A stretch of 30,365 nucleotides of DNA from Intoshia linei (lineage: Eukaryota; Orthonectida; Rhopaluridae): positions 1 to 30,365 of the forward strand of contig LWCA01000364.1 in assembly GCA_001642005.1 (NCBI GenBank), read 5' to 3'. Numbering within the stretch: position 1 is the stretch's first letter; each line of letters begins with the position of its first letter. Below the pieces are notes generated by a model. That model was not told the origin of the DNA, searched no databases, and saw only the letters and a list, made by a program, of their open reading frames with translations. A program made the translations under genes and the position numbers. Below are positions 9,856 to 29,334 of this stretch, one piece after another.

Positions 9856-12800
9856 ATGAATAAGAGAATTTTAAAAGTATTTTGATCGTTTTTATCATTT
9901 ATAAATAAATTTTAATAGGAAACTGAAAGATTACAAACTACGCCTATTGATGGGTTTATTATTAAATTGAATCCCACAAATAATCGATGTTTTGAAGCAA
10001 TTATGCATGGACCTCCAGATGTAATTTATATAAGGATTATTTTATTTCTTTGTTTTTTGTAGAGTCCATATGAAGATGCTAGTTTTCAATTAAAACTGTT
10101 TTTACCTGAAAAATATCCTATGGTTGCTCCTAAAATTAGATTCATTTCTAAAATATATCATCCAAATATTGACAATGTTGGAAGAATTTGTCTGGATATT
10201 TTAAAGGGTATTTTTTACTTTCTGGTGTTAATAAGTAGACAATTTTCGTGATATATTATTAATGTATTTATAATTATGATTTATTTACATTGTTAACAGG
10301 TGAACTTTACATTGTAAAGTCATAGAACGAGAAATTTAGAATATTAAAAGAAAAAAGTTGCAGAGTAAATTTTCAAAAAAATTGTTTATAATTATTTTTA
10401 CTAGCAATTTAATTAATTGAAGATTTTACAGTAATTTTTAAGAGAATTTAAGAAAGCGACCAAAAAAGCCTATGGGCTATTTTAGTTTATTTTAAATGAC
10501 ATTTAAACCCAAAAATACAGGATTGTATAAGTTATAAATTATAACTATGTTGGAAAAAAATATTGGTGACATTTAATTTTTAGGAATTTTTTTGGATTAA
10601 GGTGTCGACATTGTAGATTGGGCGCTGAGTAACGTAAATAGCAGTATGAATTGTAATATTATATTATTTTGATAAAATGGCGACATTGCGATTACTGAGT
10701 GTTGTGGCTTTTTTACTAGGATATTGGAAAAATTAAAAAAAATATTATCTATCATGTTTTATTTGAGTTTATTTTATATTTATAATTGTAGTTAATAATA
10801 ACTAGTTATTGCAGACGTTTCAATGACAACGAAATTATCATAATATGTTAATTTTTTTTTTTATTGATAGCTTAATTAATTGCATGTTTTATGATGATTT
10901 GATAATATTTTTATACTTTTGTGGTCAACTCAGTTTATAAAATAATCTACTTCACTGAAAATTTAGGAATCGAAAAAATTAAATTTGTAGTTTAAAATTT
11001 CATTTAAATTATTTAAAAGGATAACAAATTATTTTAAATGTATCGCTTCTCGAGCTTTTGGCTCGGATCAAAAAGTGTAGTATCTGTTCTTACAAGCGTA
11101 ATTTCTTGTACGCTACCCACGTGGTAGCACAGAAGTTATCCCTATTTTTAGATCTTGGTGATTGTTTCCTGCTTGCAGGTTCTGCACCACGGGTTGTCGT
11201 GTTCTTGCACTATTTACGTGTACAGCCCATTTATCAATTAAAAAAGAATCATTACTTGTTTATTATTGAGTAAAACATAAATTTTTTACTTACAGTTTAG
11301 CTCTACTAATCAATTAATACGTTGAAATTAAAATTTTCTGTTTTTATGAATTATTTTTAACTAAAATTTGTAATTATTTTATATTTTATTTAACTACTAA
11401 TCGTTAGTCTAACGGTGCATTGGTATACTGTAGTAACCAGAGTTGCCGGAAAATATATCGTGTATCATGAAGTTCATCGATATACCTATTCAAAATTCTC
11501 ATATATTCAACAGAATTAACTTTAATAGCACAACTTACAATGATTCTTTGTCCATCTTCTTTTATGGCACCCCATATCATAATACTGCTGCTGAATTTTA
11601 CCGTACTATTAATGTGGGTGTACCTACTATGACGCTTTTTGGTACGTCTAACATATTTCGAGCCCTTGAAAATAAATTAAATTTACTTTTGTTACTAAAA
11701 ATCACTAAATTCCAGTTCATTGATGACCAGTCAATACGATTTAGACACCATTGTAATCTTTTCTATTTTTTTGTAGAAGTTAGAAATGGTTTCTTTGTTG
11801 CAACTCTTCCAAAACGTCTACCTCTGCTTAAATTTCGTTATATGGTATCAATACTGATATTTGCTTTCAATGGAAGCTGTGATTTTAATTGAGATGCTGT
11901 CATAAATGCGTCTTATTTGGACGAAAATTTTGGTCTCTGGCATGTAAAACATGTGGACGTCCTGATCTCTTTATATTTTTGAGAGGAATACCATTGTTAT
12001 GTTTTTTTATCATTTCCTGAACTGCACATCTTGATATTGAAAGCTTTCGGGCGATTTTTGTCTGCGGGTAACCTTTTTTGTAAAAATCGACTATTAATTT
12101 ACTTTTTTCTATGCTAATTTGTGGCATCTGTAGTGTCTAATATTCTTATAACTATAATAAAAATTATTTGCATACCAATGAAGAATAAACGGTTCAAAAT
12201 AGCAAGTGCCTAAAACTTTTACACTGGAAAAAATCCCTCTATCTGACCGCCAAGAAAAAACTAATTTAACTAACACTTAAAGAAAAAATCCACTTTTACC
12301 AATATTTTTTTGAAAAATCCAATTTTACCAAACTTTTAGGCATATTGCTGAAAATCTAATGTTGTGTCACTTCCAGCTTCATATATGGTAGAAGCGGGAT
12401 TTAGCCATTTTTTGTTATTAGGAAAACATAAAATGCCTTAATGTTGAAAAACGTGGAGACTTACGTTTTAAGATCACAAACTTATTCATTAACTTTGACA
12501 AATTAATTAAATCTACTAATTTAAATGCACAGCGGCGCTGTAACATAAAAAAGATTAAGAAACATGGTTTAATTACTTGTAATTACCATCGGTAGTATAT
12601 GTATGCCTATGTTATAACTTTAAATTAGACAAGTGGACCCCAGCTTTACAAATACGAACCATTCTTATGTCTGTTAGGGTTCTGGTAGCTGTACCAAATC
12701 TGGATGATCCTCTTGTGGAGTATATTGCGAAGCATTTCAAAGACAACCTTAAAGATGCCGAAGAAAAAGGTTTCATTTATTTATATACATGTGTTATACT

Positions 12801-12863
12801 AATAATTTAGCTAAACAAATGTCCAAACTTTATGCCCTTCCGAAAAATGCTAATTTTAAATAA
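9856..12863 (+). CDS. UBE2N: UBC13/UBE2N-like ubiquitin-conjugating enzyme (complete, 5 exons)
   Basis: Exons 9856-9876, 9919-10020, 10063-10207, 12629-12769 and 12811-12863 join in frame to 154 codons including TAA (153 residues; UBC13 proteins are about 150-152). Three introns are 42, 42 and 41 nt; the third is 2,421 nt. The last short intron has a TACTAAT branch site. The protein starts MNKRILKETERL, matching the RRIIKETQRL start of UBC13. It has [13 protein letters not shown] (residues 73-76), the catalytic Cys84 in GRICLDIL, then [18 protein letters not shown] and a KLYAL tail. UBC13 with a UEV partner builds Lys63-linked ubiquitin chains in the cytosol and nucleus. Notable changes are TPA for the RING-contacting SPA motif, and Lys52 where human UBC13 has Glu55 at the UEV interface, while Phe54 (human Phe57) and Met61 (human Met64) are kept. 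Metazoan UBC13 is usually near-invariant, so this looks like a fast-evolving orthologue or paralogue. Confidence 0.92.
10208..11041. other. Intron 3 of the UBC13-like gene, 5' part
   Basis: This starts with the donor G|GTATTT after ILK and contains no recognisable exon. About 10600-10710 is somewhat less A+T-rich (GTGTCGACATTG, GGGCGCTGAG, ATGGCGACATTGCG) without an identifiable feature. The 55-100 bp before the U2 start do not show a snRNA proximal sequence element that I can name with confidence. Confidence 0.5.
11042..11229 (+). ncRNA. U2: U2 spliceosomal snRNA (diverged, structurally complete)
   Basis: The 5' end ATCGCTTCTCG and the branch-site recognition block GTGTAGTATCTGTTCTTA match U2 snRNA, and the length (about 188 nt) is the usual U2 length. 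Stem-loop I is CGAGC-TTTTG-GCTCG. IIa is TACAAG-CGTAATTT-CTTGTA, the same 20-nt size as the canonical hairpin. IIb is GCTACC-CACGT-GGTAGC. The Sm site is ATTTTTAG. Stem-loop III is TGGTG...CCTGC-TT-GCAGG...CACCA. Stem-loop IV is GGGTTGT...ACAGCCC with loop core TTGCACTA in place of TTGCAGTA. Most stems differ from fly and human sequence on both sides yet pair, so this is covariation, not pseudogene decay. It has extra A residues before GTGTAGTA (ATCAAAAAGTG). It sits in the long intron of the E2 gene, same strand. Confidence 0.85.
11405..12226 (-). pseudogene. Tc1-like transposase remnant, inactivated
   Basis: Read on the minus strand from 12127, [20 protein letters not shown] is followed by an HTH ([20 protein letters not shown]) and SGRP, the DNA-binding part of a Tc1 transposase. 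The frame then breaks. Downstream pieces include a motif block with [16 protein letters not shown], then [20 protein letters not shown], and finally QYTNAPLD before a stop near 11405. In Tc1 transposases these blocks read IFSDESKFNLF, WGAI and QQDNAPCH. The two visible catalytic Asp positions are Asn and Thr here, several in-frame stops occur (in the blocks around 11850 and 11780), a frameshift lies near 11630, and the C-terminus is missing. A CAGTG-type end (CAGTGTAAAAGTTTTAGGCA read from 12226) may be its 5' inverted repeat. It lies antisense inside intron 3 of the E2 gene. Confidence 0.85.
12227..12628. other. Intron 3 of the UBC13-like gene, 3' part
   Basis: This is non-coding. At about 12331 the plus strand reads AAACTTTTAGGCATATTGCT, similar to the proposed Tc1 terminus (AAAGTTTTAGGCACTTGCT) but in opposite orientation, so a second terminus-like fragment may lie here. 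The stretch ends in the acceptor TTTAAATTAG before exon 4. Confidence 0.45.
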
Positions 12864-17500: not shown

Positions 17501-20500
17501 AGAGGGGTTGGGCCATATGGCCCGATCCTACAATCATAAGGGACTAATATTTTAATTTATTAATATGTAATATTAGAAAATTTCTTAATTATGATGAATC
17601 ATCATTGATGACCAATGCAACTTACAATTGTTATTTTGATTTTTAGGTAATAAAGTTTTGATTAAACAATTTATAGACGTCCCAGTTTTAAAAAAAATTT
17701 ATTTTCCCAAATTTTCCATCTGGCTCAGGCTTACTGCTGGCTCTACGCGGCCCTGGTCGCTCAATACTTTTAAAAGAAAGGATACATTTTAATTTATTAT
17801 TATTATTATTGATTTGAATCGAACATATTCAGATTATATCAAACATAAATTTGCATATAAAATTAAATTAAAATAAAAACCTGTAAAATTTAGAATTATC
17901 TGCTTGAATAATGGTAAAATTTGTAAAAGTTGCACACCCCGATATGACTTGTCTTACATTATGTTGAACATTCATGATAATGTTGTTGTCATCATCAATT
18001 AAAGTCAATTCCACACTCCACAACCCAGTTGATGAATACAAATTTTGAATAGGTTGATTGGTTTCATCATAAATACAAACAATTAAAGGTTTTTCAAAAA
18101 TGGCCCCAGCATGTAAAGGGATAGGATTCTGAAAGATTTTCATTGAAGTAGGAATGACAATAGTTTCTAAAATGATATTATGTCCAACATTTTGATCGGC
18201 GGTAATTATATACTGTTGATAATTTGGATCTTCTGGTGGAGGAACTGGTTTGGTTATAGTCATATTAATAACAATAGCATTCATTATTTTTGAAATGGAA
18301 TCACTCTGTATAGCTTCACCCAAGTTTGATACGATGCTTGTTAATTTTTGGAATGACAGTACTGGTGTTTTTACACCTGGATTGTCACCAAACTCTAATT
18401 GCACGGATAATTTTCCTATAGCACGTTTTTTCTGTAAAGCATTTGACTCTGAAATAATATTCACTATTCTAACTTGACTAGGATCTAATCCTAAAAATAT
18501 TCTCAAATTGTTGATGATATCAACTCCAAAAAAATCGTCAATTGTCATATCCGGTAAATCAAAGCTAAACCGTACCACCGCCACTATAGATATTTTGTAA
18601 TCAATAGATGACTGAACGGTCAAGTACAATGTTTTACTCATTGTGTCGTAAATATTGGCACCCGACGTGCCGTCTGATATATAATAAAAGGGTTTATCGA
18701 CTGTTTTGTATCTGTATTCTCCTGGTGAAACTTCTACTCTGTTACTAGGCGGTACATAAACACCATTAGCCGTAACATCTATTCTTTGAGAAGTTGAATA
18801 ATAAATGGCTACAAAAATAAAAACAGTTGCACCACTTGATGGCAACATTAATCTCAAATTTTGAGGCAAGGTGCTACTCAGGTGGATAGTATAATTACTA
18901 CCTGCCGTAACTATAGGTCTATATAAACTTAATCGCTCTCTACAAGCATAGCCTTCGCATATTCCGTGGTCGGATGGGCCATTCATTACGTCTAAGAATA
19001 AATCTCCAGACAAAATGGCAATTGGGCCAATTCTTCTGGTTAATGTATCGGAATCAAGACTTTCTAAATGAAGATGATAATAATCGTCTTCTTGGCACCG
19101 GTACGCCGTCCATTCTTCATTCCATACACATCTATTATTCTGAATTCCTACTTTTTTGTATAAATGTTTGTATTCTATTCTGTTTCCATTTAAATCAGTC
19201 GACATTGTTTTGGGAATCCTATGATCTCCAAAACCGCGACTCTGGTCTCCATTCCACTGAAATGATGAATCTGGTATAATTGCATATTTTCGATTTTCTT
19301 TGGGGTAAAAATGTTCAAGTAATGAACCATCCAAATCTTTAATCAACAATTTTTTATTCATATCACAGTCCATATCGATACACCCATTAAATGTTTTAAT
19401 ATTAGACAATTTGGGTCTGCCAAACTGTGCAATATTATTTTCAGAAACATTAAAATATTTAAGCTTGTTTGTTTTAATCATGTATGAGTAATCTTTATTT
19501 TCAGGGTTATATACGAATATATAGTTTTTACTGTTTTGACACCCTTTATTGTAATTAACAAATACTGTGTCTTTGACGTTTATATCAAATGACAACAAAT
19601 TTCGAGACATTAATGTATGTAATGCCATTTCTGGAAACATGTTATCATTTTCATTTGTCGTTGGCCATAATATTGCATGATATGATTGTTCGCCACCAAT
19701 TTTTGGAGGTGTCGAAGATGTGGCAATAACATAAAAGCCTTTATTAGATTTTTCTATATTATTATTTTGACAGTCGAATCCCTTGGACATGCCCACATAT
19801 ACGGATCTTTCAATAGTTACATAATGTTTATTTAAAATGTGATTTACAGGCGAACCCCCCAGAACCATTGCAAATGTACCAATCTTGGTATCTATTAAGA
19901 TGTTATCACTCAACAGTATATTACATTCTGATTGAGTGTATATTCCATAAGTCCAGACCTTCCAAATTTTAAATGAACGGATTCTAACGCACTTGTCAGA
20001 AATGGGCAAAGTGGTGGCCTGGCAATTTTCTGGTTCAATTAAAACACCAATTACAGCGGCTCCAATGATATTATTATGCCATTGCACAGCATTACTCGAT
20101 GTACACAATTCACCGCCAGTATTAAACGCTGCTCTTTCTGACCCAATCACAACATTGTCGATGCATTGTGTATCAACACTATTTACTGTATGAATTGCAC
20201 CATCATAATTCAAATTGAAAGGTTCATATCTTCCATTATATGTCCCTGAAAAAAGGTTATGTAAAACCAAATTTCCACTTATAAGTGTTGTTTTACTATT
20301 GGTTACTATTGCACTAACCACCGTGTGATATATGGTATTAAATTCAATTTTTATATTTGAGGATCCAAAAATACCCACTGCAGTTGAATAACAATTTCTG
20401 AAAGATGAGAATCGAACAAAATTATCACTCATTTCTTCATTACTTATGTCTATGAAAGCTATAGAAAAACGAGGATCAGATGGAGATACAAACCCTTCTT

Positions 20501-23500
20501 GTCCAGTCTGCATAAATTCTACTGATTCTATTCTAATTTTACCTGCAAAAATTTAAAAATTTAAAGATTAAAAAATTATGTTTTATATAACCTTGAAAAG
20601 ATTTTATGTCAGGAATACCATCAATTAAATTTACTTCCGTTGTCCGTCCCACAACAACTCTTCCACCGAAAGATTGCTTATGACTAGTTCCATCATCGTA
20701 ACCAAATATTTTTATATTTCGTGTCAATAATCCAACTAAAATCTATTTAGATAATAATATTAATAATAAAATAACCATAAACAGAAATTTCGTAAGATTG
20801 GCTTGAACTATTTTCTACTATTCTATCGTTCACAATAAAATGATTATAGTTTAATGGGGTTTCTAGATTTATTATTCCAAGTTTTAAATCAACAGATTTA
20901 ATTTGAACAATTTCTGTCTCTCCACTGTCAAAACTTGATGAAGATATGACAATTTCATCTTTTGTCTTCCAGGTGATAGCTCCGTTTACAGTAATGCTAT
21001 TGTCCCCTTTTCTAGCTGACATTACCAATTTATATTTATTGAAACTTTTATCTGATCCAAATAGTTGCAGTAAACCAAAAACAGCTAAAATTATAATTTT
21101 TATAAATAACGTCGCATCATTGTCAGAGCCCAATATACCATGTTCGAGGAATATACAAATATTAATTAGGCCTTTAATTTCATATTTTCTAAAAGATGCG
21201 TATTATCATATAACCACTAACTCACGGATCAAGGTTCTCAGCTTGACAGTTATGATACTGACAAATATATAAATCCTTACTTATATAAATGTTCAATTTA
21301 GAAAAATTATAGCAAATTTTGGAAAAAATATACATTGTTCTATCGATTATAGCATATTATATATATAGTTATACGTACTACCTCAATAAGGCACCCAATA
21401 TGATCAATTGTGTATGTAACTCTTTTGTGTGTTATCGTTTAATTAAAAAAGTCAATGGTTTATAAAATAAAAAACTCAATTTGTAATAAAGTTTTCAGAG
21501 ATTGATGTTTTAAAGTAAATTTTATTTACAGAAATTAGATCCTTCTGGGTCAAAAACACAAATTCCCATTTTTTTAAAAACTGAAGAGCCATAGAATTTA
21601 AAAAACATTGACTTTTCTCGGAATATTTATAAAGTATTAACATTGTCGTTAATGTCAACATCAGAACCTTATATTTTTATGTTCCAAGCCCCAGATTACC
21701 CTTTTCTTTCAAATTAAAAGTCCTAGAATTTAATAAAAACATACATTTTGGTAAATCTCAACAAGAGAAGTTTACATCTTTATGGTTTAAACTTTCAACC
21801 CATATTACACGTTTTTTTAAATCTAGTGCTAGAATTTTAAAACAAAATTACAGCTAATGCAGTTATTGCAATTAACATACAGAAAAAATTTTAATCTCAA
21901 ATAGCGACGCTATAACGGTCAAAAAAGCACTTTAGTATTCATTTTTTTATTTGGTATATTATTTACTTTATAAACCAAAAGTATTCAAATGTCAATAACT
22001 CATAATCATATAATTTAAATAAAAGATTATTCATAGACAGATTATTCCACGTGATCTAAAGAAAACATTTGAACCCATAGAAGTCTGCGTATTCCTGGTC
22101 AAAAATTAATTTTAATATATTATCAACCAATATTTTTTAAATTTTAATTTAAAATTGAAAATCTAAATATTCATCTTAAAATTTCAAAAAAAAGTGAGAA
22201 TGAAAGCTATAAGTATTTGAAATACAGAAATCATGGTTTTAGTCTCATAAATGGAACCATTCCGTTTTTTTATCATTGCTACGCAATTATCTATTGGTAT
22301 TTTCAAAAAAATTTAAAGTTTATCAATTAAAGTATAACTTTGTTATTATGCAAAATGTACTTTAAAAAAATAAACTAATTTTTTAATTTTGCTTGTAAAT
22401 TAAAGTGGCCAGAAAAAATACGTACTATTGATTTTGGTTTATTTGGTGTTAAATGTAAAGCCAAAACTAATTATCTATGACGAATAAAAATTTTCGGCTT
22501 AAAATTTATGGCCACTTTAGGTAAATTACCCATTACTAGTGGTAATACAATCAGAAATCTGGTAAAGCACGTGCTGGTAATAAAAATTTTACCAATAATG
22601 CTGGTAACACCTTTGCTTATTGCAGCAAAATATTTGTACTTATCGAAAAAGGATACGGAATATATTTCATCACATTACACAAATTTTTAGAAACTTATAA
22701 TTTACACAAATAAAGAGTATTGAACATTGTTCACAACTTGAAGGATTTGAAAGAATTCTCATTTTAATTAAATATTATTATGTAAACTAACCTATAGATT
22801 TAGATCCAATTTTGGGTCCATATTCAGTAACATATTCCACAGTATCTTGATTTCCATGCAACACAATATCAAAATCTCTAGTAAAAGCTTCTTGAGCAGT
22901 TCCAGCAAACATGTGACCACCTTGAATAATAATATTAAATACGTGTAATTCAATTTTTGGAGATGCTACACCATTTAAATTGTTTTTTACTTGCAATGTT
23001 CCTCTAATGATTATTTCCTGGTAAACAGTTTTTTCGCCGGTATCTAAAATTACCCATAAATTTTTTGGGATAATAATTTTTGCTCCATTTGAAGGTAGAC
23101 CATTAGTAGTAGAGGAACAGTATATTTTGTCTTCCACTAAAGTTGTCGACCAGGATGATGTCATAGACCATTGAAGTGAATTATTTGGAGTTATAGTAAT
23201 CTCATTAATTTCGTCTCCATCACCGGGTAATTTGCATTGGTAATAAAAGCATTTTTTTGCTTCAAACTTTACATCTAAATCACAGTAATCTTTATCATGA
23301 GGAGAACATACACCTACATATGTCAATTCTTTACCAGCTTTACTATAATGATAATCTCCAAAAATTAAACCGCTGTCCCACGGTGTACCACCGTTGTTTA
23401 ATGGTGACGTGATCGTGTAATTATGATTTTTAACTGTAGGGTCTTTATTTAAAGGTACATTAAGTATATCATAAAAATCTTGTTTTAATATGTGGCTTAT

Positions 23501-26500
23501 GAAAATAAATTCATTTTTTTCCAAATTCCATATACGCCCTAAATAGCTAATATTTGATATTTGTAGTCCATTTTCCCAAACTATTGAATATGATTCACCA
23601 ACCACACCCATAAACATCCACCCATCTGAAAAAACATCTCTTTTGATTCTGTATGGTACTAAACTTTCCCCATTTTTATTTTTCACAATAATGTTTTTAT
23701 AAAGCAAACTTTCGGGTAACGCTTCATTGAAACTGAAACGAAACATGCTCACGGTAGGTGAACATAAAAGTGCCTTGAAATTAACACTCCACATTCCAGT
23801 TGTATCAATTTTACACTTTGATAAAGGTACTAAATCTGTTTTTGGTACTACACGATAGCCAGCAACATTTGTATCTGTCAAACTTCCATCCAAATCTACC
23901 AATTCCATCTAGTATATACTTATAAATTATATATTGTATTATACCATATGTTCCCATTTAAAATCACTTCTTTTTGAAGAATTTATATACTTTACATTTT
24001 TAAATTTATAAGTGTATCCACCACAAATATTTGTACATTCGCAAATCACCTTAACCAACCCAAATGTAGAGCATATCTGTCCATTTTTTTCTCCGTCGTA
24101 ATTAATATACGTCACTCCTAATATATAATTATAATTAATTGCATTTATTTTTAATGTTACCATCGTATAGTAATCCATTTCCAAACGGCAATACAGTTCC
24201 ATACTAAATATTTGATAAATATACTTTTTTAGAAACCAGAAAAATAGTACACGGTCGCATAATATCTGCAATTAAAATGACTTAAAAAAATTAAAAAGAC
24301 TATTAAAATAATAAAAAGTTGAACGAAATCAAATTGCTGTAAAATTTTGTTTGATAATTTTATCACACATTTAGGCATAGTATGATTATATACCGTGGTA
24401 CTTTCGAAACGTTTGGTTTTACGGATGCTATGATAAACTAAATGATGCATATGATTATAAATACATTGTGCTAAATCACTAAATCTTATCACTTTTCTAA
24501 TTTTTTTAATATACGAGTGAGTAATTCGGCCAATGAAGAAAGATGGATAATTTAATTTTCAATAGTTGAATCAGCGAATCAGTGATTTTTTTATTTCGAG
24601 ATATAAATAAATTTTAAAAATTATTATTCATTATTAAAATTTTAAGGTTCAGAATTTTGTAATGTTTCCTTTTATTACCGTTATTTATAAAAAATACTAA
24701 AAATTTTCCACTAAAATTTATTTTAATTTTTTGCAGATACAGAATACTATATTATTAAAATATTCATTTAAAGATTAAAGATTGTTATTACAGACAGAAT
24801 ATTAAATTATTTATTATATTTATTGGTATTATTATTATTGGTGAATAGTGTTTGCATCTGAGATGACCCAGTGACTACCCGCTCATTTTTTTAATATATT
24901 GACGACATGAAACTAAATAGATAAAAATTACTTTGCTGCAAGGAGGATGAGCTTGATAATTAAAATGAGATATAATTGTAGCACCAGTAACCATTGCTCC
25001 AGTATATTTGTATTGGGGTGTATTATGCATAATATGAACGTGTTCCAAATTAGCTTCAAAATTATTTCCAACCAAAAAATTTTTATATTGAACTGAACTG
25101 CACCTAACCCATTCCGCTCCACGTAAAGAGTTCCAGACAATCATTTTTTCAAAAATGGCAGGTTTTGTAGCTGCCCCATAATCGCATTTTCCATACGTTT
25201 TAGACGTCTCACGAGGATCATAACGTTCAAAAATCCACAAACCGTACCAACCTACTGAATGAACAGTGTTGTTGAAACATTCCAGTAAAGGAGCGAATCT
25301 AGGACAAATTGACTTGTCAAATGAAGGACCTTCAGGATGTTCCCTCATTCTGTACCAAATTCCAAAATGGGTTCCTCCAGCAATATGATTATGTCTTACA
25401 ATGTTGTAAGGATGAGTGATCCAGAGTCCAGCTGGCGATATGTCGTCATTCAATAAACTAGAACTAGATTTTACATGTACGAGAAGGTTATATTGGATTA
25501 TATTTTCACGTTCTATGCTATCTTCTAAAAAAACGGCTCCACCCATTACATCATATATTACGTTTCTTTCAAGCACTAAAATGTGTATTTATATTGATAT
25601 GAACGATTATGCAAGTTTTACTCGATCCTATACAATGGCCAATATTTTTAAAGTAAATTGTGATTCATTGTCGGAATAAAAATTTTAAATTTTGAAAAAA
25701 TGTATAGGTTCTTGAAAGTCTAGTCCAGTGTTTCCCAAATGGTTTGCCATAAGTAGAATTCAGATGCGTCGCAAAGAAATTTTACTTTATTTTATAAATT
25801 TTTAAAAATTAGTGTCTAAACGTTTACATTGACGAATATTGTAGGATTTAGTATTTAATATAATATGCGATTTTTGTTTGTGTGTGTGTTCCACTTTATT
25901 TAATATTGAATTTTATAAAGTCCACATTTCAATTACAGTTTTTTTTCTGGGTGTGTTCGCAAAATTTATTTCAACCTCCCAAACTCATATCTTACGGGTC
26001 AAAAACCCCAATTGTCCTTTTTTTTAAAAATCAAACAAGTTGGAGAATTTAAAATAATATATACGCTGATACGGATTTTAAAATCATAAACATTATTATA
26101 AATTTAAATTTAAAAAAATTATATCTTCAAGGCCAAAACCCCAAATTACCCTTTTTTTAAATGAAAACAGCCCTAGAATTTAAAAAAATTTACAGGTGGT
26201 AGAGTTGTATTATGTTAACACACATAAAAAATTTCAATCTGAGTAAGTGACGACTTCACGGTTAAAAAATCATTTTAGTATTCATATATTTTTTTTCCGA
26301 AATATTTTATTAAAACCAAAAATGTGAAATAATTAACCGTTCAAAAATTAAAAAAAAAAAAATTATTCTGATAGTGCCTATTCCAGTTGATATAAATACA
26401 AAATTTCAACCCCAGATATCTACGCATTCCCGGTGAAAAATAATTTTTAATATATTATCAACCAATATTTTTCAAATAGTTCGATTAAAATCAAAAATTG

Positions 26501-29334
26501 AAAAAGGTAAATATTGAAAATGTAAATATTGATCCAACCATTTCAAAAAAAATGTGCAGTGAACGTCTACACATTTCCCATAAAGAAATATGGGTGAAAA
26601 TCTATATAATTCATTCCTTCGGAATTTTTTAAATTTTAAATTCTCATTTTCAAAACATTTTGAATAAAATTTAAATAGAAACTAAACACGAAACATGATT
26701 TATTGAAACCTGTTATAACCATTCAATTTAATCAGTTATGGCAAATTGATGTTTTAGGTCCGTTTATAGAAAATTCAAAATTAAATAAAGCATTTTTGTA
26801 TTATTATATTATATTTTTATCGTTTTTAATCTTTGCAAATTTTCGAATATCGATGTGTTATTTTCTTATCAAAATTTTTATTTATTTCACATGTGCTCCA
26901 AGAAATAAAAAAGGTTAACAATAACTGCTCCAGTGATTCGCAATACAAAATTAAGTACGCCTCAAGAATTTTAAATAATTTCAAAAATTGAATAAAACTT
27001 ACAATTGTTAATAAATTAATAAAAAATACAAGGCAATTAATTTAATTAATTTACACATAAAAAAAATCACATCGTTTATCAAAACGTTTTTTAGAGTCAT
27101 TTCAATAATGTTTAAACTTTTGGGTTCACATTTATTAGGGGGATAATATTTTAGCAAAACAGTCAAATATTCGAGCAAATCGATTTGAAGTGTTAAGAAA
27201 TTTTTTTACATATTTGGTGCACCGCCAATTTTCATTACCTTTAAGTACGCGTAATAGCAAAAAGTTTGGGGACCACTCGTCTAGTCACTAGAGCAGTGCT
27301 TTCTAATCTGTGTGTTGCCAAACTTTTAAAATTTATAATCTAAAGTGAACAGAAAAAATACCTACTAACAATTTTAATTTATTAGTTTGTTAGTGTAAAA
27401 TTTAAGTTTTAAGTTTTTCACTTTTTTTGGTGACGAGAACAATTCTCGTCCACTTATTTTTTTAATTTTTGTGTCGCAAAATTTTTCGAAATTGAAATGT
27501 GTCGCCAACCAAAAATTTTTGAAAGCACTACACTAGAGTCTAGTTAATAGAGTTTAATAAGTACAGTAATGTAGCAGTAACATTTTTTTAGCCATGTATA
27601 GCAAAAAATAATAATACAGTCTAATTTCTCGTTATATGAATATTTTAAAGACTAATTTTGTAATTAAAAATATACAAATTGGATGATTTATGTTAATAAA
27701 ATATTATTATGCATTGGCTCTTCTATTTCAAAAAATTCTGATTAACATTTTTATTGAAGTAAAAAAATTTTAAAAGTATCTTCTTTTTTAATTAGTAATA
27801 GCAAAATATTCAAAAACAGTCATTATTTTTATATAAAATTTTTTTGTCAAAATTTCACTTATTTTCTGCATACAACTAATTTTATATAGATAAATAGTGT
27901 AAATAGTGAAAACTTTTAAATTTTGAAAAAAGTGCTCCACTTTTCACAACTTGTCTATAGTCCGCTTAAATTAAGCCTTAATCCGTATCTACTGTAGTAC
28001 TCATTGATACTACATCTGTATCGAAAATTAATTATATTTAATTTTATTCTGTTTTTTTGATTTTTTCTGTTATTTATTACCTACTAAAAGCCCCTTTAAA
28101 TTAACATGATTATTGTACTTGATAAAAATAAATAATCCGTTAATCTGCGTTTTTCGAAAACTAGTAATTCAGTTAATCAGTAATTAGACTGTACAATAAT
28201 TACATATATTGTGACTGTTGTGAATGTTTATTGCCCGATTATAAGTTTTGTGTATGGAACATCCTTTTACATATGATCCAGTCATATTTCCATTAATATG
28301 AAAATGAATAGGATAACGTCCTATTCTAAAAGCTTGACCAACATTGAATAATTCAACATATTCTATATGTATTTTTGCAGAGTTGGAATCAAATACATGG
28401 CTATGTGCCATTATTTGACCTCCATATTCATCAGAACCAACTTCATTCCCAAATCGTCCCTAGTGTAAAATTAAATGAGTAATATTTATTAATATGTGAT
28501 GTAATTAATTTTGGGTACTATGAAAATAGAGCAATTTTTAAATACAAAATATTGGATTATTAACTGGGACCATTCCAGTGTAAATAAGCTAAATTAAAAC
28601 CGTGTCACCTGTTAAAATGGATTAGATTTTAAATAATGATTGCTTGACCCATCAAATTTTTTAAGGATTTGGTGCATTCAAAAAAATAAAATATTTTTCT
28701 CCAAAATTATTTTAATTATATTAAAAAGTTGCCAAACCCGATTTTAAAATTTTGACTCACTTTTCAAATTACTAAGTAGTACTACATTTGTATCTGTACT
28801 ACAAATTCTGTAGTATCTTGTATTGAAGATATGAAAATGAATTTGATGTATCAAAATGAACAAAAACTAAAAATTTTAAGAAAATAGAAAATAACCTGAA
28901 AACACGTTTGTACAGCAAATTGACCTATCAAAAAATAAAATACAAAATTTTTAGTAATTCACCTGTATCAAAAGTTTCTGGGCAAGCTTTAATATTATCA
29001 GCCCATTGTTCATTAGAACTTCCTCTAAATAAAATATTGTGAGACAAAAGTCCCACTTCCGCTCTCAGTTCAATCGAAGCTCCATTAGAGTAAGTTTCTG
29101 TAATACCCAAATGTTTAAATTTAGCATTTGTATCTAGAGTAATTGTTTTTTCATCCAATTCAATCTTTATTATTAAAAATGTTTCATTTTCATTTTGACT
29201 ATTATGACCACCAGTCGTAGGAATAACAATTTTATCGCCAATTTTCCAATTCACTTTTGTTTTAAGTACAATTACATTTCCACCAATTTCCAAAGTATTT
29301 GCTAGTAGAGACCACGTTTCAGGAGTCTTTCGAC
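14230..29334 (-). CDS. PKHD1L1: Fibrocystin-L (PKHD1L1)-like membrane protein, 3' part of gene, 15 exons
   Basis: Exons, 5' to 3': 29334-28963, 28924-28896, 28459-28204, 25575-24932, 24203-24161, 24117-23945, 23908-22792, 21084-20776, 20735-20592, 20542-17881, 15891-15708, 15335-15192, 15077-14642, 14581-14430 (or 14409) and 14367-14230. All junction phases agree, and after the first partial codon the sum is 2,267 codons including TGA. The layout matches the C-terminal half of fibrocystin-L: the segment after the first G8 domain, PbH1 beta-helix, second G8, second PbH1 region, ectodomain, one membrane helix, basic tail. The family consists of very large single-pass cell-surface proteins; vertebrate PKHD1L1 is a stereocilia-coat and immune-cell protein, and its role in invertebrates is unknown. 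Fourteen introns: 36-62 nt for seven or eight, the others 114-2,628 nt with repeats. The 5' half (IPT/TIG repeats and first G8 in relatives) is off the right edge. Confidence 0.92.
14642..15891 (-). CDS. Fibrocystin-L exons 11-13: membrane-proximal ectodomain
   Basis: Exon 11 (15891-15708) reads RLDAKVVGNSYFKHGIIQSK and ends FLNVK with donor AAG|GTAAAT. Exon 12 (15335-15192) is placed by phase: acceptor AATAATCAG, then ILLQIQAVMLKNYPEI, ending MAQLMYE with donor GAA|GTAAGT. Exon 13 (15077-14642) reads NETWQIRLSPDYNCSNNNEI and runs to FSNFRILE, donor GAAG|GTAAAT. Exon 12's acceptor lacks a pyrimidine tract, and nearer TTTAAG and TGTAG sites are out of phase. So that single boundary is less certain, although the joined wording (beta-strand followed by a Gly-rich turn) fits the fibrocystin C-terminal repeat pattern. 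Confidence 0.78.
15892..17880 (-). other. Fibrocystin-L intron 10 (about 2 kb), with an unexplained less A+T-rich patch
   Basis: Donor CAG|GTTTTT at 17880 and acceptor TTTAATTTTAG before 15891. About 16610-16750 stands out in base composition and holds a hairpin, GAGAG-T-CGAAA-G-CTCTC. There are also short palindromes GGGTTCCTGAACCCC (around 15990) and GGGCCATATGGCCC (around 17511). At 17700-17760 is a G+C-rich stretch (CTCTACGCGGCCCTGGTCGC) that may be one end of a repeat. No coding exon was found; a 64-codon plus-strand frame at 16418 is not supported. Confidence 0.5.
17881..20542 (-). CDS. Fibrocystin-L exon 10: second PbH1 region and ectodomain (887 residues)
   Basis: This is the largest exon. 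It starts (G)GKIRIESVEFMQTGQEGF after acceptor TTTTTGCAG, upstream of the first Met, which is internal. PbH1 rungs follow (FGSSNIKIEFNTIYH, TTLISGNLVLHN, NNIIGAAVIGVLIEPENC). The second DLDGSL motif comes next (KKLLIKDLDGSLLEHF), then NDHRIP-type and Cys-rich segments (CVWNEEWTAYRCQEDD), WTRRIGP-like TLTRRIGPIAI, and FYYISDGTSG. A Pro-rich stretch, KPVPPPEDPNYQQ, lies near the end. The last codon is split, TAC AG|G, so the true continuation is KFYRLDAKVV in the next exon and not the intron read-through RFLF. Confidence 0.93.
20592..21084 (-). CDS. Fibrocystin-L exons 8-9: post-G8 region
   Basis: Exon 8 (21084-20776) begins after TTATAATTTTAG and reads AVFGLLQLFGSDKSFNKYKL. Further on come TWKTKDEIVISSSSFDSGET and TPLNYNH, equivalent to 'VFGGLDLHG' and 'DEIVI.S.DYD...E' in relatives. 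A 40-nt intron (20775-20736) is removed, and TATG|TTGGA gives VYVGLLTRNIKIFGYDDGTS, the 'EVGLLTRNI' signature. Exon 9 ends SFQ-G at 20592 (phase 1), followed by a 49-nt intron. An upstream open extension of exon 8 (to 21133) is intron sequence. Confidence 0.9.
21085..22791 (-). repeat. Fibrocystin-L intron 7 with a strongly diverged copy of the 0.8-kb repeat (copy D)
   Basis: Donor ATAG|GTTAGT, acceptor TTATAATTTTAG. Between about 21530 and 22260 the plus strand follows the same order of motifs as the copies at 25866 and 29378 (GAATTTAAAA, TTAGTATTCATTTTTT, AATTTTAATATATTATCAAC and CAATATTTTTTAAATTTTAA), with many substitutions. About 22402-22519 has facing AAAGTGGCC and GGCCACTTT ends around 120 bp. 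No exon is seen in the intron. Confidence 0.6.
22792..23908 (-). CDS. Fibrocystin-L exon 7: DLDGSLT module and second G8 domain
   Basis: A 36-nt intron (23944-23909) precedes MELVDLDGSLTDTNVAGYRV, the conserved 'LVDLDGSLTG' signature of the family. A middle region of about 240 residues follows, with PWDSGLIFGDYHYSKAGKEL and the Cys-bearing CKLPGDG. The second G8 domain starts around exon residue 252 (SWSTTLVEDK). It carries GAKIIIPKNLWVILDTGEK, IIIRGTLQV, FNIIIQGGHMFAGT and FDIVLHGN, in the G8 order of IP..V.LD, L.I.GTL, I.GG...G and I.LHG. The exon ends GPKIGSKSI plus G in phase 1; G|CT joins to AVFGLLQLFG. Confidence 0.92.
23945..24203 (-). CDS. Fibrocystin-L exons 5-6: 43-nt microexon and following exon
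   Basis: The microexon 24203-24161 encodes YGTVLPFGNGLLYD plus one base. It is bounded by acceptor CAAATATTTAG and donor GATG|GTAACA. A 43-nt intron leads to 24117-23945, giving the joined wording GNGLLYDGVTYINYDGEKNG. This is followed by CECTNICGGYTYKFKNVKYI and KWEHM, the Cys-rich 'GGYTYKFKNIKF' unit typical between the PbH1 region and the DLDGSL motif. The longer, misreading frame in this area must be abandoned because it skips the conserved VTYINYDG junction context. Confidence 0.85.
24204..24931 (-). other. Fibrocystin-L intron 4
   Basis: 728 nt from donor AAA|GTAATT to acceptor CAAATATTTAG. An 87-codon open frame within it has no supporting splice signals and does not fit the phase of the flanking exons. 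Nothing else recognised. Confidence 0.6.
24932..25575 (-). CDS. Fibrocystin-L exon 4: beta-helix continuation
   Basis: Acceptor CACATTTTAG; the frame starts (T)TG-CTT for LLERNVIYDVMGGAVFLEDS. It goes on with PAGLWITHPYNIVRHNHIAG, GTHFGIWYRM, CPRFAPLLECFNNTVHSVGW and YGLWIFERYDP. These Gly-Leu-Trp-Ile, HN and N.. repeats are the rungs of the right-handed beta-helix. It closes with HPPCSK and donor AAA|GTAATT in phase 0. This is the 214-residue core of the first PbH1 unit in the window. Confidence 0.9.
25576..25865. mobile_element. Fibrocystin-L intron 3, 3' part, with one hAT-type terminus
   Basis: At 25727 the plus strand reads CAGTGTTTCCCAAATGG, wording typical of a hAT inverted terminus, followed by GATGCGTCGCAAAG. 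No opposite terminus was found before the repeat that begins near 25866, so this is a truncated element at best. Confidence 0.35.
25866..26668 (+). repeat. Copy A of the 0.8-kb interspersed repeat family
   Basis: About 800 bp nearly identical in its inner part to 29378-30171: TTAACACACATAAAAAATTT, GAGTAAGTGACGACTTCAC, CCCAGATATCTACGCATTCC and AATATATTATCAACCAATAT occur in both at matching spacing. It starts ATGCGATTTTTGTTTGTGTG and ends around CATTTTGAATAA. It lies in the 2.6-kb intron 3 of the fibrocystin-like gene, in antisense orientation to it. It has no open frame of note and no clear inverted or long terminal repeats. Confidence 0.93.
26669..27293. other. Fibrocystin-L intron 3, middle part
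   Basis: No exon. A possible old hAT-like pair: CAGTGATTCGCAATAC near 26931 facing AAAAAGTTTGGGGACCACT at about 27260, but target duplications are not recognisable. A 71-codon frame at 26703 is composed mainly of Phe, Ile and Tyr from T/A-rich DNA and is not supported. Confidence 0.35.
27294..27530. mobile_element. hAT-type MITE, 237 bp, perfect 8-bp target duplication
   Basis: The left end is CAGTGCTTTC and the right end, inward on the minus strand, is TAGTGCTTTC. Further in, GTGTGTTGCCAA and its near complement TTGGCGACAC (minus strand) extend the inverted structure. The flanks CACTAGAG (27286-27293) and CACTAGAG (27531-27538) are identical, as expected for hAT insertion. Part of its interior (AAAGTGAACAGAAAAAATAC) resembles 22404-22423. 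It lies in fibrocystin-L intron 3. Confidence 0.9.
27531..28203. other. Fibrocystin-L intron 3, 5' part
   Basis: A+T-rich sequence following donor ATAT|GTAATT at 28203. The sequence 27993-28022 (CTGTAGTACTCATTGATACT) contains a small inverted motif. There is no exon or recognised repeat. Confidence 0.4.
28204..28459 (-). CDS. Fibrocystin-L exon 3: first PbH1 beta-helix segment
   Basis: After acceptor TTTTACACTAG the frame reads GRFGNEVGSDEYGGQIMAHS, then VFDSNSAKIHIEYVELFNVG, GRYPIHFHINGNM and NRAINIHNSHNI. GRYPIHFH and the NRA..IH..HN wording are hallmarks of the PbH1 region after each G8 domain. The exon ends in phase 1 at 28204 (ATAT|GTAATT). Joining T|TG to the next exon gives NILLERNVIYDVMG, which matches the family pattern 'NLLVENNVAYDVMGH'. 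The following intron is 2,628 nt and hosts repeats. Confidence 0.88.
28460..28895 (-). other. Fibrocystin-L intron 2
   Basis: 436 nt between donor CAG|GTTATT after QTCFQ and acceptor TTTTACACTAG. The interior 28770-28815 contains a small inverted motif (AAGTAGTACTACATT). Nothing else recognised. Confidence 0.55.
28896..29334 (-). CDS. Fibrocystin-L exons 1-2 of the window: post-G8 segment and 29-nt microexon
   Basis: The acceptor ATTATAATTATAG precedes G|RKTPETWSLLANTL, the segment that follows the first G8 domain in this family. It continues VNWKIGDKIVIPTTGGHNSQ and ELRAEVGLLSHNI, both family signatures (GDEIVI, EVGLLSRN). After CPETFDTG (exon end 28963) a 38-nt intron leads to a 29-nt microexon, 28924-28896, encoding QFAVQTCFQ, the equivalent of the conserved 'ATQTCFQGRFG' stretch. 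The phases fit exactly (G|GT, then phase 0). Confidence 0.88.

Follow-up and report, generated by a model that had tools for sequence, protein, structure and literature searches.

A divergent U2 snRNA gene of Intoshia linei, probably a working copy, nested within a UBC13-like gene

Small nuclear RNA (snRNA) genes of the Sm class have been described inside protein genes. The available text of PMC4053861 places two of them, LU and U5:23D, in adjacent introns of Drosophila fas2, with PSEA and PSEB at LU, and the available text of PMC13083258 places the human U2 gene RNU2-2 within the 5′ UTR of WDR74, away from the other U2 copies. We analysed a stretch of 30,365 nucleotides of DNA from Intoshia linei (the window), which holds a U2 snRNA gene within a UBC13-like gene. 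The locus resembles fas2 in that an Sm-class snRNA gene is nested in a protein-gene intron, but the RNA is U2 instead of LU or U5 and the host gene is different. It resembles RNU2-2 in that a U2 gene overlaps a protein gene away from other U2 copies, but here the gene lies in an internal intron and not in a 5′ UTR. An earlier note on this DNA had called such a location unusual; in view of these precedents, it is uncommon at most and not new.

The host gene was reconstructed from its exons (Table 1). Joined, the five exons (9856-12863) gave exactly the deposited 153-residue protein A3Q56_03330 of Intoshia linei (100% identity, 100% coverage), with two neighbouring choices fitting equally well at the last exon junction. 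This protein is a ubiquitin-conjugating enzyme (Pfam UQ_con, 3e-40), and its named relatives are of the E2 N/UBC13 types, at about 55-61% identity. Its introns measure 42, 42, 2421 and 41 bp, and the U2 gene lies in the longest of them, in the sense orientation reported before; the median intron of the species is 57 bp in the available text of PMC6543705. The same intron may also hold a Tc1/mariner-like transposase remnant, which matched Sleeping Beauty weakly (E 0.24) and whose second piece had no Pfam match. Farther along the window (17868-28459, minus strand), opposite to the UBC13-like gene, we observed exons of a fibrocystin-L-like gene with G8 and CEMIP beta-helix domains.

Table 1. Features of the U2 locus and its host gene, in window coordinates; C325 and C154 are the two other U2 copies of the assembly
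Feature	Position	Strand	Remarks
Exons of A3Q56_03330	9856-9876, 9919-10020, 10063-10207, 12629-12769, 12811-12863	+	yield deposited protein P0005 exactly
Host intron of UBC13-like gene A3Q56_03330	10208..12628	+	2421 bp; exons reproduce deposited protein
Upstream flank homologous to C325 flank	10820..11041	+	alignment score 64 vs maximum 20 in 985 random pairs
AAAAAAT element at -69 (putative)	10973..10979	+	-68 in C325, -58 in C154; AT-rich sequence
TTTAAAA box at -30 (putative)	11012..11018	+	same place in C325; TTTATAA at -29 in C154; AT-rich sequence
U2 snRNA, window copy	11042..11235	+	130.7 bits to Rfam RF00004, over model positions 1-192 (of 192)
Stem I, slipped register, nt 9-14 with 20-25	11050..11066	+	six pairs, one U-G, 3/3 copies
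Three extra A ahead of branch-site block	11072..11074	+	insertion vs Rfam consensus, 3/3 copies
Branch-site recognition block GTGTAGTATCTGTTCTTA	11075..11092	+	same letters as Rfam consensus
Stem IIa	11091..11110	+	6/6 pairs; 2 pairs changed on both sides vs Rfam
Stem IIb	11112..11128	+	6/6 pairs as drawn; 3 pairs changed on both sides vs Rfam
Stem IIc 3′ arm, pairs nt 57-64 (11098-11105)	11132..11139	+	8/8 pairs, 3/3 copies
Presumed Sm site AUUUUU	11144..11149	+	letters identical in 3/3 copies
Stem III	11156..11189	+	two pairs broken: 11161 with 11184, 11167 with 11180
Stem IV	11191..11228	+	loop-closing pair 11203 with 11215 broken; loop UUGCACUA kept
3′-box-like element AATTAAAAAAGAATC	11236..11250	+	U1/U5 matrix, p 0.13 ungapped
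Possible Tc1/mariner-like transposase remnant	11404..12136	-	in the same 2421-bp intron; HTH_28 3.3e-05, below Pfam cut-off

At the Rfam gathering scores, U2 (RF00004) was the sole match in the window. The covariance-model match ran end to end (E 1.2e-26) and its 130.7 bits stood above the curated cut-off of 46 bits, demonstrating a full-length, structured member of the U2 family, as had been claimed. The start at 11042 agreed with that assigned before, while the 3′ end is better placed at about 11235, where the match ends, than at 11229. The RNA shares with RF00004 the branch-site block, stems IIa, IIb and IIc, most pairs of stems III and IV (21 of 24) and the Sm site, and departs from it in its low identity to the consensus (63%, 121/191), in three extra A residues and in a one-register slip of stem I. 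The branch-site block was intact, as stated in the earlier note, and its GUAGUA recognition sequence, in the context GUGUAGUAUCUGUUCUUA, agreed with the consensus. In fly and worm U2, one extra A probably stands before this block; the position of the three in Intoshia was set by the Rfam alignment inside a run of five A. The AUUUUU downstream is what we take to be the Sm site. By the human ranges in the available text of PMC13083260 (U2/U6 helix I, n. 20-28; branch helix, n. 32-44), the extra A residues sit between the helix I region and the branch helix region. A literature search for U2 snRNA and Intoshia found nothing, in a search whose reach excluded most subscription papers and which is no proof of absence.

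The RF00004 search was extended to the genome assembly (34.65 Mb, 1319 contigs), as the earlier note had proposed. It revealed three U2 copies, C325 (135.7 bits), C154 (131.5 bits) and the window copy, whose score was the lowest; 46 of 5256 first-look candidates were scored by Infernal, so that the count is at least three. A DNA-based search at E up to 1 returned the same three (3/3 candidates scored), and neither approach found a canonical U2 elsewhere in the 34.65 Mb. The three copies carry the same type of divergence, including the three extra A, and none is more canonical than the others. Judged from the sequence, the divergent form is therefore the U2 of the Intoshia linei lineage itself, the first of two options raised previously, rather than an aberrant paralogue that accompanies a normal U2. 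A RasGEF exon precedes the C325 gene by about 1.9 kb, both being on one strand (5 of 10 listed frames tested), and no Pfam family was found near C154 in 4 of 11 listed frames.

We compared the secondary structure of the window copy with the Rfam model and with its two sisters. Among the 45 model pairs, 23 were the same, 13 carried changes at both positions without loss of pairing, 2 carried a change at one position and likewise paired, and 7 were unpaired, in an alignment that is fitted to the structure and favours pairing. The many paired substitutions described earlier were thereby confirmed against the Rfam consensus, but the accompanying statement that every stem still pairs was wrong for this copy. 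In the Rfam register two pairs of stem I were broken, and a one-base slip gave six pairs; going by the title of one study in the reference list of PMC13083260, a strengthened stem I is said to be able to block splicing with human U2, which makes the continuous stem I of Intoshia noteworthy. In stem IIb, a seventh Rfam pair was broken. Stems IIa and IIc are mutually exclusive in U2 according to the available text of PMC8516221, and both pairings are possible in the window copy (6/6 and 8/8). Stems IIa, IIb and IIc can form in all three copies and are invariant, so that stem IIc supplies no covariation inside the genome. In stems III and IV, whose 24 pairs were drawn from the folds of C325 and C154, 21 formed in the window copy, whereas none was broken in either sister; the three lost pairs (nt 120-143, 126-139 and 162-174) were kept in both. 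Pair 128-137 reads C-G, U-G and U-A in the three copies and is the sole two-sided change inside the genome. The isolated 3′ domain folded at -22.3 kcal/mol in the window copy, compared with -28.9 in C325 and -26.3 in C154. The folding z of the window copy was -2.65 (equalled or bettered by 3 of 200 shuffles), and its minimum-energy fold was not canonical and lacked stem III, while those of C325 and C154 contained stems III and IV. By these predicted structures, neither sister is as weak as the window copy, which may be drifting; a comparison with other copies, which had also been suggested, revealed one type of divergence throughout but weaker stems III and IV here.

The window copy and C325 differed at 10 of 194 positions, all within nt 109-194 (0/108 in nt 1-108; 10/86 in nt 109-194). 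The window copy differed from C154 at 16 positions and C325 from C154 at 11, in each case with one difference before nt 109. At the rate of the 3′ domain, the chance of 0/108 would be about 1.6e-6, a rough figure that assumes independence of sites. The 222-bp upstream flanks of the window copy and C325 were homologous yet strongly diverged: random pairs (985) had a mean score of -6.1, and the same test gave 30 for C154 with the window copy and 16 for C154 with C325. By plain identity with free gaps the upstream flank was not distinctive (0.69, where random pairs averaged 0.65). For the three pairs of copies, the scores of the downstream flanks were 20, 14 and 24, indicating at best short stretches of likeness. 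The identity of nt 1-108 despite diverged flanks points to selection on the transcribed RNA, and it is a better sign of the selection that had been proposed for this structured U2 than the paired substitutions cited before. That the paired substitutions of this copy itself show selection was not supported: the compensatory changes are common to Intoshia U2 genes in general and, relative to its sisters, the window copy carries stem-breaking changes. In this copy, the 5′ domain looks constrained but stems III and IV look drifted.

Sequences that suggest a putative promoter and 3′ box flank the gene. The words common to the three U2 genes are TTTAWAA at -30/-29 and AAAAAAT at -68, -69 and -58, putative elements in an AT-rich context. 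Behind the gene, the 3′-box matrix, for which a by-eye consensus served to choose the sites in nine U1/U5 genes, gave p 0.0012 when a one-base gap was permitted, a gap allowed after the ungapped p of 0.13 had been seen. C325 scored 12.8 bits ungapped, and C154 reached 12.8 bits only with a gap.

We consider it likely that the window copy is an ordinary gene for the U2 of the major spliceosome, one of three, duplicated as DNA with its upstream flank and probably transcribed and used in the U2 snRNP. A DNA segment with U2 and its own upstream flank would have been copied into, or out of, the intron of the UBC13-like gene. The gene's own promoter would most likely drive transcription, and the RNA would be cut near a 3′ box, loaded with Sm proteins in snRNP assembly and, within the U2 snRNP, employed in recognising branch sites. 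The end-to-end RF00004 match, the three copies of the same type, the identity of nt 1-108, the -30 and -69 words, the 3′-box-like element, the possibility of both IIa and IIc, and the presence of U1, U5 and U6 in the genome count for a working gene. Counting against it are the three broken 3′-domain pairs, the lowest bit score, the ungapped 3′-box p of 0.13, the absence of the PSE, a promoter element present at U1, U6, U11, U12, U6atac and MRP genes, which is however absent in all three U2 genes, and the failure to find U4 in the assembly. On balance, the copy is a real U2 gene, and probably a working one, from an animal that evolves fast. It provides a U2 sequence from a strongly simplified, tiny parasitic worm, in whose U2 the stems are rewritten and the branch block, Sm site and IIa/IIc alternative retained.

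The same broken pairs (3/24 vs 0/24 in each sister), the loss of stem III from the minimum-energy fold and the imperfect 3′ box would also fit a young pseudogene, a recently working copy whose decay is first visible in stems III and IV. We regard this as unlikely, given the absence of any difference to C325 in nt 1-108, with its chance of about 1.6e-6 if sites are independent, and the retained Sm site and stem IV loop. In other animals, U2 copies are known to evolve in concert, and gene conversion between copies, instead of selection on each, might underlie the identity of nt 1-108, a reading compatible with a working gene. Its probability appears low: the window-C325 identity stops at -1 and -2 already differs, and a tract of conversion would not have to halt where the gene starts. 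Selection on the transcript seems to explain the identity better than conversion.

We give little credence to a bolder reading, in which the U2 of Intoshia has been structurally retuned as a whole and the intronic copy, with a weakened 3′ domain, is a second, functionally distinct U2. Were it true, the three extra A and the slipped stem I, whose five Watson-Crick pairs run without a break, would shift the balance of stem I against U2/U6 helix I and the branch-interacting loop, a change that might go together with this lineage's very short introns. U2A′ and U2B″ bind at the 3′ domain of U2, and a specialised variant in which its weakening alters their binding, co-regulated with the host gene, would fit the lost loop-closing pair of stem IV, beside an intact loop, and the sense-strand intron location. 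It is most improbable, since nt 1-108, which cover the branch-site and U6-pairing regions, are the same as in C325 and drift accounts for the changes equally well. A retrocopy was rejected in view of the upstream flank common to the window copy and C325 (score 64 vs a random maximum of 20), which favours duplication at the DNA level.

Returning to the ordinary U2 gene that we favour, the other spliceosomal RNAs of the genome were also surveyed. U1, U5 and U6 were found by Rfam over their curated cut-offs, U6 being well conserved (112.8 bits), its U4-pairing part included. At E 0.001 the assembly yielded no U4, a miss that is no proof of absence; with the limit raised to E 10 there were only five matches, each of 20 bits or less, and an exact pattern had 0 occurrences across the assembly. 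It may lie in an assembly gap or be too diverged. RNAs of the minor spliceosome appear to be present in Intoshia linei: U11 (80.5 bits) and U6atac (37.6 bits) were over cut-off and a U12 candidate (35.8 bits) under its cut-off of 53, the set occupying L012 (C490:1399-1529), L049 (C936:52372-52513) and L044 (C182:3229-3321). Three U1-like loci had altered 5′ ends, namely L007 (C1088:17038-17194, 74.3 bits, UCAAUUACCUAA), L008 (C813:33056-33212, 58.4 bits, UUAAUUUACUUU) and L009 (C813:35002-35148, 36.3 bits, AUACGACUGCAG), against a cut-off of 69.5. Each carries a PSE and a 3′ box, at sites within the training sets, and they are either variant U1s or decaying copies.

The PSE matrix was built from eight U1, U6 and U5 sites. 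The element GTGNATAAATTATG, near -74, was present in 6/6 U1 genes, 2/2 U6 genes and one U5 gene, largely the training set, and at -73 to -75 of U11, U12 and U6atac, outside it; it also stood at -75 of an RNase MRP gene that was itself found through the pattern. The matrix scan revealed no significant site in 3/3 U2 genes and 2/3 U5 genes. Genome-wide, the pattern occurred 17 times, compared with once for a reversed control. Six of the 17 sites front genes for U1 (4), U12 (1) and RNase MRP (1), three front a repeated unit and eight have no gene assigned (Rfam was run on 12 of the 17). A common Intoshia PSE could aid the finding of more small RNA genes. Three similar loci, L031, L039 and L041 (C385, C1020 and C1065), carry the PSE and TATATAAG followed by the conserved stretch AGTGAATAGACNATATATGCC; a search of Rfam up to E 1 matched none of them, and they possibly represent an unassigned small RNA or a repeat family.
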